Of a stretch of 64,000 nt of DNA, positions 27,969-64,000 are shown piece after piece. A model generated the notes under the pieces. It saw only the letters and a program-made list of their open reading frames with translations. It was not told where the DNA came from and searched no databases. The stretch comes from Streptomyces sp. SUK 48 (GTDB lineage Bacteria > Actinomycetota > Actinomycetes > Streptomycetales > Streptomycetaceae). The stretch lies in contig NZ_CP045740.1 in the NCBI RefSeq assembly GCF_009650765.1, forward strand, positions 4,068,001 through 4,132,000, read 5' to 3'. The translations under genes and the position numbers were made by a program. Each line of letters opens with the position of its first letter. The stretch's first letter is position 1.

Positions 27969-29732
27969 CTACTTCGGCTGCGGCTTCCTGATGTTCAGGT
28001 GCAGCTCGCGCAGGCGGGACTCGTCCAGCTCGGTCGGCGCGCCCATCATCAGGTCCTGGGCGTTGCCGTTGAGCGGGAAGGCGATCGTCTCGCGGATGCT
28101 GGGCTCGTCCGCGAGGAGCATGACGATACGGTCCACGCCGGGAGCGATGCCGCCGTGCGGCGGGGCGCCGAAGCGGAACGCGCGGAGCATGCCCGCGAAC
28201 TTCTCCTCGACGGTCTCGCGGTCGTAGCCCGCGATCTCGAACGCCTTCAGCATGATGTCCGGCTCGTGGTTCCGGATCGCGCCGGAGGACAGCTCGACGC
28301 CGTTGCAGACGATGTCGTACTGCCAGCCCAGGATGTCCAGCGGGTCCTGGGTCTCCAGGGCCTCCAGGCCGCCCTGCGGCATCGAGAAGGGGTTGTGCGA
28401 GAAGTCGATCGAGCCGGTCTCCTCGTCCTTCTCGTACATCGGGAAGTCGACGATCCAGCAGAACCGGAAGACGTTCTCCTCGAACTGGCCGGCGCGCTTG
28501 GCGGCCTCGACGCGGACCGCGCCCATGATCTTGGAGACCTCGTCGTACTCGCCCGCGCCGAAGAAGATCGCGTGGCCGGGGGCCAGCGAGAGGCGCTTGG
28601 TCAGCTCGGCGACGTTCTCCTCGGTGAGGAACTTGGCGATCGGGCCGGTCAGCGTCCCGTCCTCGCCGACGCGGACCCAGGCGAGGCCCTTCGCGCCCAG
28701 CGTGACGGCGAAGTCGCCGAGCTGGTCGAAGAACTTGCGCGGCTGGTCCTGGACCGCCGGCACCGGCAGGGCGCGCACGTGCTTGCCCGCGAACGCCTTG
28801 AACTCCGAGCCCTCGAAGACATCGGTGATGTCCACCAGCTCCAGCTTGGCGCGCAGGTCCGGCTTGTCGGAGCCGTACTTCAGCATCGCCTCGCGGAACG
28901 GGATGCGCGGGAAGGGGGAGGTGACATGGCGGCCGCCGCCGAACTCCTCGAACAGCTCGGTCATGAGCTTCTCGATCGGCTGGAAGACGTCCTCCTGCTC
29001 GACGAAGCTCATCTCGACGTCGAGCTGATAGAACTCGCCCGGCGAACGGTCGGCGCGGGCGTCCTCGTCGCGGAAGCAGGGCGCGATCTGGAAGTAGCGG
29101 TCGAAGCCGGAGATCATCAGCAGCTGCTTGAACTGCTGCGGGGCCTGCGGCAGGGCGTAGAAGCGGCCGGGGTTCAGGCGGGAGGGGACGACGAAGTCGC
29201 GGGCGCCCTCGGGGGAGGTCGCGGACAGGATCGGCGTCGCCATCTCGTTGAAGCCGAGCGCGGTCATCTTGTGGCGGATCGCGGAGATGACCGCCGTCCG
29301 CAGCATGATGTTGCGGTGCATGCGCTCGCGGCGCAGGTCGAGGAAGCGGTACTCCAGGCGCCGCTCCTCGTTGACCCCGTCCTCGGCGTTGATGGTGAAG
29401 GGGAGGGGCTGGGCCGCGCCGAGCAGCTCGACCTCGCTCACCTCGACCTCGATCTCGCCGGTCGGCAGGTCCGCGTTCACGTTCTCGGTTCCACGCGAGA
29501 CGACGGAGCCGTCGACGCGGACCGTGGACTCCTTGGAGAGCTTGTCCAGGGCCTCGTAGGCGGGGGTGCCGGGGCGGGCGACCAGCTGCGTGATGCCGTA
29601 GTGGTCGCGCAGATCGATGAAGAGGATGCCGCCCAGGTCGCGCCGATTGTGCAGCCAGCCACTGAGCCGGACGTCGGTGCCGACGTCAGAGGCGCGGAGC
29701 TGGCCGCAGGTGTGGGACCTGTACCGATGCAT
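27969..29732 (-). CDS. aspS: Aspartyl-tRNA synthetase
   Basis: A 587-residue class II synthetase of the bacterial type. It begins with an OB-fold anticodon-binding domain ([20 protein letters not shown]), followed by motif 2 ([20 protein letters not shown]), the bacterial GAD insertion (about 290-420), and motif 3 ([13 protein letters not shown]). In actinobacteria the enzyme is often non-discriminating and also supplies Asp-tRNA-Asn for GatCAB; this cannot be decided from the sequence alone. Start ATG 29732; convergent with the AbiEii-like gene. Confidence 0.97.
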
Positions 29733-62393: not shown

Positions 62394-63539
62394 TCAGTCC
62401 CGGGGCAGGGGCCGCGGGTGCGGGGTGATCTGGGTGCCGGGGCTGGCGCGCACGATGGTGATGAGCCGGTCGGTCAGCTGGAGGGTGCCGATGGACCGGT
62501 CGTCGTAACCGAGCACCCGGTGCCCGCGTACGACGCTCACCACGAGGTCGTCGATCTCGCGCGGCCCCTTGCCGGCCTCGGCGCGCACCACCGGCCGCTC
62601 CACGAGGTCCAGGCCGCTGCCCTGCTGGATGAGGTCCTCTATGACCATGCCGGCGGCGGGGCTGAGGACCGACAGGCCGAGCAGCCGGCCGGCCGCGCTG
62701 GCGCTGGTGATGACGGCGTCGGCACCGGACTGCCGCAGCAGCGGGGCGTTCTCCTCCTCGCGCACCGCGGCCACGATCTTCGCGCTGCGGTTGAGCTGAC
62801 GGGCGGTCAGGGTGACCAGCACGGCGGTGTCGTCGCGCTGCGGGGCCACGATGATCTGCCGGGCCTTGTGCACCTCGGCCCGCCTGAGCACGTCGCTGCG
62901 GGTGGCGTCGCCCATGACCCCGGCGTAGCCGTCGGCGGTCGCCGCGTCGATCACCTTGGCGCTGGGGTCGACCACGACCACCTGCTCCTTCTTCAGCCCG
63001 GTCGCGCAGACGGTCTGCACCGCCGAGCGCCCCTTCGTGCCGAAGCCGACGACGACGGTGTGCTCGCGCAAGGCGGACCTCCAGCGTTTCAGCCGCCATT
63101 CCTCCCGGGTGCGTTCGGTGAGGACCTCCAGCGTGGTGCCGACCAGGATGATCAGGAACAGCACGCGCAGGGGGGTGATGACGAAGATGTTGGTCAGCCG
63201 GGCACTGTCGCTGACCGGGGTGATGTCGCCGTATCCCGTGGTGGAGAGGGTGACGGTGGCGTAGTAGAACGAGTCGAGCAGGTCCACGGAGTCGTCGGCG
63301 CTGTCGCGGTAGCCCGCGCGGTCGGCGTAGACGACCAGCGCGGTGAGGACCAGCACCAGCAGCGCCACGATCAGCCGTTTGGCGACCTGGCGGAGCGGCC
63401 GTTCCACCACCTTCACCGGCAGCTTCACCTGGTGGGTGACCGGGCGCTCGTCCGCCGTGAGGGCGTCGTCCCGCGGGGTCCCGGTGCGGCCGGGGGTGCT
63501 GTCGGAGGTGCCGAGGGTGCCGCTGTCCGCACGTTTCAC
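62394..63539 (-). CDS. Potassium channel with RCK (TrkA-N) domain
   Basis: A 381-residue two-helix K+ channel. TM1 is about 55-72, the selectivity filter is TTGYGD (100-105) and TM2 about 116-138; the cytosolic RCK domain starts with VVVGFGTKGRSAV and continues to the end, with a second RCK-C-like part. It should form a tetramer gated by a nucleotide or ion at the RCK ring. GTG 63539 is chosen because its GTGA overlaps the TGA of moeA by four bases, i.e. translational coupling; a TTG at 63548 is in frame. The start codon lies inside a parS site. Confidence 0.93.
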   Translation of the reverse strand: MKRADSGTLGTSDSTPGRTGTPRDDALTADERPVTHQVKLPVKVVERPLRQVAKRLIVALLVLVLTALVVYADRAGYRDSADDSVDLLDSFYYATVTLSTTGYGDITPVSDSARLTNIFVITPLRVLFLIILVGTTLEVLTERTREEWRLKRWRSALREHTVVVGFGTKGRSAVQTVCATGLKKEQVVVVDPSAKVIDAATADGYAGVMGDATRSDVLRRAEVHKARQIIVAPQRDDTAVLVTLTARQLNRSAKIVAAVREEENAPLLRQSGADAVITSASAAGRLLGLSVLSPAAGMVIEDLIQQGSGLDLVERPVVRAEAGKGPREIDDLVVSVVRGHRVLGYDDRSIGTLQLTDRLITIVRASPGTQITPHPRPLPRD

Positions 63540-63546
63540 GTGAAAC
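63533..63546. promoter_or_regulatory. parS site (ParB-binding centromere sequence)
   Basis: GTTTCACGTGAAAC, a perfect 14-bp palindrome identical to the Streptomyces parS consensus; with A at the 3' flank it also matches 15 of 16 bases of the longer TGTTTCACGTGAAACA form. It spans the stop codon of moeA (63536-63538) and the start codon of the K+ channel gene (63537-63539). ParB nucleates on parS for segregation of the origin region. Confidence 0.92.
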
Positions 63547-64000
63547 AAACCCCGATCCCCGCGGTCGTCCAGGGCAGGTCCAGCAGCTCCGTCTCCGCGC
63601 CCTGCCGGGCCCCGCCCGGGGGTACGACGGCCAGCGCGTCGGCGGCGGCGATGCCGCGCAGCATGGCCGGGCCGTTGTAGTGCAGCGGTACGGCGCGGTC
63701 GCCGCGCAGCACCACGGGGACGAGCCGGGTGTCGTACGGGTGCCCGTGCACGGTCTCCGTCAGCGGCAGCGTGTACGGCTCGGGGGCGGGGCGGGCGGCG
63801 AGGGTGCGCAGCAGCGGCTCGGCGAGCGTGATGAGGCCGGAGACGGCGGCGAGGGGGTTGCCGGGGAGGCCGACGAGGTGCTGGTCGTCCCTGGTGCGGG
63901 CCAGCAGCATGGGGTGCCCCGGGCGCACCTGCACGCCGTCGACGAGGAGTTCGGCGCCGATGCGTTCCAGGGTGGGGTGGACGTGGTCGAGGGGCCCGGC
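63536..64000 (-). CDS. moeA: Molybdopterin molybdotransferase MoeA, C-terminal part
   Basis: 155 residues of a frame that runs off the right window edge (the N-terminus is outside). It shows the MoeA block RPGHPMLLARTRDDQHLVGLPGNPLAAVSG and the C-terminal domain IV (LPLTETVHGHPYDTRLVPVVL). MoeA inserts molybdate into adenylated molybdopterin. It is upstream of and coupled to the K+ channel gene (GTGA overlap), an odd functional neighbour. Its final four residues (VCFT) and stop are encoded in the parS palindrome. Confidence 0.9.
   Translation of the reverse strand, partial: AGPLDHVHPTLERIGAELLVDGVQVRPGHPMLLARTRDDQHLVGLPGNPLAAVSGLITLAEPLLRTLAARPAPEPYTLPLTETVHGHPYDTRLVPVVLRGDRAVPLHYNGPAMLRGIAAADALAVVPPGGARQGAETELLDLPWTTAGIGVCFT

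Follow-up and report, generated by a model that had tools for sequence, protein, structure and literature searches.

Genes and features at the junction

The window, a stretch of 64,000 nt from Streptomyces sp. SUK 48, ends within a moeA-like gene on the minus strand. The stop codon of this gene overlaps the start codon of a potassium channel gene, and the two codons lie together inside a perfect palindrome. The features of the junction are:

62394..63539, minus strand: K+ channel gene, 381 aa, with a pore domain and a TrkA-N (RCK) domain (PF07885, PF02254)
63533..63546, no strand: parS, the perfect 14-bp palindrome GTTTCACGTGAAAC, 0 mismatches; putative ParB loading site
63536..63538, minus strand: TGA that ends the moeA-like gene and overlaps the channel GTG (GTGA), from the reading frame
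63536..64000, minus strand: C-terminal part of the moeA-like gene (PF03454, PF00994); the rest lies beyond the window end
63537..63539, minus strand: GTG start of the channel gene at the parS centre, from the reading frame and in register with the RTG starts of relatives that lack parS
63546..63548, minus strand: TTG, a second in-frame channel start whose G is the first parS base, from the reading frame
63550..63553, minus strand: Shine-Dalgarno-like GGGG immediately 5' of parS, from column conservation at -7 to -4

The channel protein combines a pore domain with the GYG filter (Ion_trans_2, PF07885; TTGYGD) and a TrkA-N domain (PF02254), which identifies it as an RCK-type K+ channel. For the moeA-like product, the 154-aa part within the window matched PF03454 and PF00994 above the gathering score, and the complete gene encodes 455 aa. 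The whole protein fell short of every NCBIfam equivalog cut-off for MoeA or Glp: its best scores were 204, 184, 181 and 174 bits, where 534, 440, 475 and 560 were required. We therefore call the gene moeA-like only. Its scores on the MoeA models and on the model of the divisome protein Glp were nearly equal.

On the minus strand, the moeA-like frame closes with V-C-F-T-TGA (TGA at 63538-63536) and the channel frame opens with GTG-AAA-CGT (GTG at 63539-63537), giving a 4-nt stop-start overlap, GTGA at 63539-63536, in the middle of the palindrome. In the moeA-like gene, parS covers TTC (F), ACG (T) and the TGA in full, and all but one base of TGT (C). Its left half, GTTTCAC, makes up most of the spacer between the GGGG, called against the familiar anti-Shine-Dalgarno sequence, and the GTG. 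The TTG at 63548-63546 is in frame 9 nt upstream of the GTG, so that parS lies in the start region with either start, and an NTG triplet occupies the TTG position in 69 of 71 junctions of the genus.

Copy number and position of parS in the genome

An earlier note on this DNA had identified the 14-mer as the known Streptomyces parS, and the match holds without a mismatch. In the genome of 8,341,671 bp the exact 14-mer occurs 17 times and the reversed control pattern not at all. According to Markov models (orders 1-3) fitted to the window, the window itself should hold about 1e-5 to 2e-5 exact sites and the whole genome 0.0012-0.0025. The sole other near match in the window lies at 29488, and its 3 mismatches put it in the range of chance. 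PMC7022226 lists the same 14-mer for M. smegmatis; the S. coelicolor form given there differs in one central base.

The note had further placed the window near oriC and expected more copies to cluster there, as we found: all 17 fall between 4,131,533 and 4,430,252, a span of 299 kb around dnaA (4,217,321-4,219,279) and parB (4,224,944-4,225,480; TIGR00180 match above cut-off, 1.3e-60). The junction parS is 85.8 kb from dnaA and is the outermost copy on its side, which it shares with one other copy; the remaining 15 stand on the parB side of dnaA. For S. venezuelae, 16 parS sites were predicted in silico (PMC4852455) and a figure legend gives 17 as ParB-bound (PMC12511625), while a one-sided excess of parS about oriC has been reported for streptomycetes (PMC8743542). 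Judged by its letters and position, the junction 14-mer is an ordinary chromosomal parS, one that would probably load ParB clamps about 86 kb from dnaA.

According to a simple codon-usage gene caller and a tRNA search, 12 of the 17 copies are intergenic. Of the other five, three coincide with a start or stop codon, namely the moeA-like/channel junction, cydD (4,279,814) and the stop of an MFS-like gene (4,238,424), and two appear intragenic (4,228,888 and 4,297,501). Three copies (L011, L008 and L014) form the centre of inverted repeats whose arms extend a further 18, 10 and 8 bases, and these repeats resemble terminators at gene ends. The outermost copy on the parB side (4,430,239; L130 1501-1514) lies between the tRNA-Phe and tRNA-Asp genes.

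A palindrome across a start codon could also act in the RNA, as a hairpin that tunes translation, and a 6-bp stem is indeed predicted for the 16-mer. The predicted energy of this stem is just -3.9 kcal/mol, however, and the same palindrome occurs at intergenic places; we found this explanation hardly credible and set it aside.

Conservation of the junction parS

With the channel protein as the query, 99 relatives were confirmed and 80 loci retained. Among the 58 labelled Streptomyces (57) or Kitasatospora (1), 56 had an in-frame parS, exact or with a single mismatch, at the channel start; the exceptions were L074, which is truncated, and L073 (S. nigrescens), where parS is absent from the channel start and five copies follow about 3.3 kb further on. 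Five copies at short spacing were also seen at L241. In the 22 other actinobacterial or unnamed loci, no site within two mismatches of parS was present. The scan loci, 16 further loci and the window together gave 73 junctions (71 distinct), all selected by parS with at most one mismatch. Within this selection 71 sites were exact, while L023 and L101, which share one sequence, had one change; thus 13 of the 14 parS columns were invariant and the remaining one agreed in 71 of 73, with many flanking columns variable.

To this we added an even sample of the genus, drawn independently of parS, in which 98 of 101 genomes had the channel gene and all 98 were read. The channel start lay in parS in 71 and the moeA stop in 71, with at least one of the two in 75 of 98, and the co-conservation of junction and parS in other Streptomyces, which the note had put forward as a check, was thereby upheld. 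The 98 loci were distributed as follows:

67 loci: parS at the channel start and at the moeA stop alike
4 loci: parS at the channel start only
1 locus (L201): parS at the moeA stop only, with a further parS out of frame
3 loci (L241, L243, L244): channel inverted, parS at the moeA stop, with one mismatch in L243
1 locus (L242): channel inverted, parS 42 nt beyond the moeA stop
2 loci: channel inverted, no parS
17 loci: same orientation, no parS
3 loci (L231, L239, L240): MoeA absent from the stretch, parS also absent

Where a same-orientation genus locus had a junction parS, its GTG was in the channel frame in 71 of 72 cases, L201 being the exception. Nine junctions carry 2-4 copies of parS (L032, L033, L036, L039, L048, L115, L166, L175 and L178), and in these the array runs from a copy at the moeA stop to a copy at the channel start. 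Since the rows are related, the counts of conservation and of codon 2 below are not independent events.

Loci in which one of the genes no longer uses the palindrome separate the DNA site from its coding roles. In L052, L109, L156, L171 and L180 the moeA-like gene has its own, displaced stop and parS is exact at the channel start; in L241, L244 and L245 (the last from outside the genus sample) the channel is inverted and parS is exact at the moeA stop. Most bases of the 14-mer belong to codons of one or both genes, and the palindrome might in principle be kept for MoeA C-F-T-stop and the V-K start of the channel alone. Yet it is still exact in loci where only one of the genes uses it, 8 of 17 parS-less relatives keep V-K-L-P with other bases, and the same 14-mer stands at 16 other places near oriC, 12 of all 17 copies being intergenic. 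We therefore set coding constraint alone aside as an explanation with next to no probability. The constraint at the DNA level, above that of the two genes, which the note had proposed is thus supported, both by these one-sided loci and by parS-less orthologues that spell the same start differently.

In the four loci with an inverted channel and parS at the moeA stop (L241, L243, L244 and L245), the channel is convergent with moeA and 59-62% identical to that of the window; these genomes also hold a separate RCK part, 77-78% identical, nearby on the other strand. In genus g14 (L122, L125, L126 and L127) the channel is likewise convergent with moeA, with GTTCCACGTGGAAC at or between the 3' ends. 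In the genomes of L122 and L125, GTTCCACGTGGAAC clusters with normal parS among the matches listed.

Probable origin of parS at a pre-existing overlap

A quick MoeA tree of 131 rows (IQ-TREE, LG+G4, SH-aLRT support only) requires three changes of parS state. One clade (SH-aLRT 98) has the fused parS in 89 of 90 rows, the remaining row being L242. In the neighbouring group of 21 rows it occurs in L201 alone, a long branch, at the moeA stop, and none of the 20 outgroup rows from other genera has it. The root split has a support of 92, and 40 of the 126 inner branches are open; because the polarity rests on this quick tree, the sister group may instead have lost a parS that it once had.

We then read 17 parS-less starts of the genus, 16 from the genus sample together with L135. 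All are RTG codons overlapping the moeA TGA, and the start of L234, inside the channel gene, was spurious. The second codon is AAG in 9 of 17, AAA in 1 and a non-lysine codon in 7. In parS-bearing loci AAA at codon 2 is fixed by the selection of exact or near-exact parS and carries weight only in contrast with these parS-less relatives and with codon use elsewhere in the parS-bearing channel genes, where AAA accounts for 83 of 805 lysine codons. Compared with the half-site GTGAAAC, 9 of the 17 parS-less starts differ at no more than one position and 15 at no more than two. In the window, the corresponding shares are 1.3% and 11.5% for RTG and 4.5% and 30.1% for RTGA, and against the RTGA control the resemblance is weaker (15/17 starts versus 30.1% at up to two mismatches). 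The spacing upstream differs as well. The Shine-Dalgarno-like stretch ends 5-6 nt before the start in 12 of the 17 parS-less loci, whereas the modal spacing in parS-bearing junctions is 8 nt (47 of 71), a shift that would fit takeover of the spacer by the left half of parS.

Because parS-less relatives keep the RTGA overlap, with AAG next in 9 of 17, the most likely course is that parS was overprinted on a start that was already there and resembled a half-parS. In the sequence of events that we propose, the moeA/channel stop-start overlap would have been present before parS, and overlap and second codon would often have read GTG-AAG-C, as in relatives, which is six of the seven bases of a half-parS. 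A change of AAG to AAA would complete one half, and the other half, GTTTCAC, would come to occupy the stretch from the Shine-Dalgarno-like sequence to the start. The completed site could then have been kept as DNA, for ParB loading, while serving as start and stop codons. Taking anatomy, conservation and relatives together, we give a probability of roughly 80% to the reading that an ordinary parS was overprinted on a pre-existing, half-parS-like overlap and then kept both as DNA and as start and stop codons.

A second parS at the start of cydD

The same arrangement recurs 148 kb away in the same genome, where cydD (TIGR02857, above cut-off) starts at the GTG in the centre of the parS at 4,279,814-4,279,827 (L015 1501-1514). 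Of 41 genomes of the genus that were searched, 40 had cydD (39 of them also in the channel sample), and its start lay at a parS centre in 37 (30 of 30 in one batch and 7 of 10 in another). Matches in other genera came from 39 genomes, of which 24 loci were fetched; the start was in parS at each of the five loci from genus g7 (in one case a parS with a mismatch) and at none of the remaining 19. The 23 parS-less cydD starts read RTG-AAG-C (11), RTG-AAA-C (3), GTG-AGG-C (2) or RTG-CGA-C (7). Seven of them have at most one mismatch to GTGAAAC, and 20 at most two.

Since parS contains GTG, and does so on both strands, finding a gene start within a given parS is no great rarity: with assumed gene density and GTG share, 0.20-0.29 such coincidences are expected among the 17 copies of a genome and two were seen (P ~0.02-0.03). 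One copy among 17 might accordingly have been placed at the channel start by chance and retained by descent alone. As chance coincidence is not negligible, the argument rests on conservation. The retention of parS in 89 of 90 clade rows, its exactness in 71 of 73 selected junctions among many variable flanking columns, and its absence elsewhere in the genus, which shows that the genes do without it, all make this explanation very unlikely. Beyond the single junction, we suggest tentatively, at slightly less than even odds, that Streptomyces parS arise and persist at gene starts because RTG-AAR-C is a near-complete half-parS. A cassette of spacer, start and second codon would then have captured at least two genes 148 kb apart, the channel gene and cydD, and, across most of a genus, would link the point where their translation begins to the segregation map.

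Possible effect of ParB on the channel gene

It had been proposed in the earlier note that occupancy by ParB might affect translation of the channel. This was not supported, as parS is kept at the moeA stop where the channel is inverted (L241, L243, L244 and L245). ParB binds DNA, and any effect of it would for this reason be on transcription. In such a scheme ParB would act as a roadblock or silencer in the moeA-channel operon and lower expression of the channel, perhaps also of cydD, when ParB complexes assemble, for example during sporulation. The start at the exact centre of parS in two genes 148 kb apart would fit, and there are precedents in Pseudomonas aeruginosa, where ParB is reported to repress promoters next to parS3/parS4 and, in excess, to silence most genes around parS1-4 (PMC5521831, PMC7022226). 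At the native ParB level, however, genes adjoining the intragenic parS1/parS2 of P. aeruginosa are described as unaffected (PMC5521831), and genes adjoining parS sites as unchanged without Spo0J (PMC7022226). The retention of parS at the moeA stop in the four channel-inverted lineages also speaks against the scheme, and overprinting explains the register without regulation. We consider such a roadblock unlikely and set aside control of the channel by ParB as the cause of conservation. Regulation of the channel by ParB may occur but is not needed, as parS persists at either side alone, and we infer that segregation rather than regulation keeps the site.

Relation to known systems

In its many copies around oriC, the parB nearby and the one-sided excess, the system resembles the ParABS parS described for S. 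venezuelae and S. coelicolor (PMC4852455, PMC8743542). It departs from that pattern in that the junction and cydD copies are fused to translation signals, while 12 of the 17 copies here are intergenic. The intragenic parS1/parS2 of P. aeruginosa also lie within coding DNA, and the effect on neighbouring genes is reported as nil at native ParB level; the available text on these sites describes no overlap with a start or stop (PMC5521831).

GTGA/ATGA stop-start overlaps are typical of translationally coupled genes, with a 4-nt overlap and an upstream Shine-Dalgarno sequence. The junction, a candidate for such coupling, has the same 4-nt overlap with a Shine-Dalgarno-like stretch upstream. It differs from such overlaps in being embedded in a protein-binding palindrome whose left half forms most of the Shine-Dalgarno spacer.

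Lists of streptomycete parS sites (PMC8743542) and parS within coding sequence in P. aeruginosa (PMC5521831) are already in print. In searches of an open-access library, no listed title or abstract presents parS as a start codon.

Significance

The junction shows how a centromere site could possibly be born at low cost inside coding DNA, by completion of a half-site at a start codon. With the channel and cydD there are two loci at which parS-bearing and parS-less relatives can be compared, and the origin and turnover of bacterial centromere sites thereby become testable. There is also a practical side, as recoding or re-annotating the channel or cydD starts in Streptomyces can destroy parS; conversely, the gene start is changed when such a parS is deleted. 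In most of the Streptomyces genomes examined, the same 14 letters appear to serve both chromosome segregation and the stop and start of genes.
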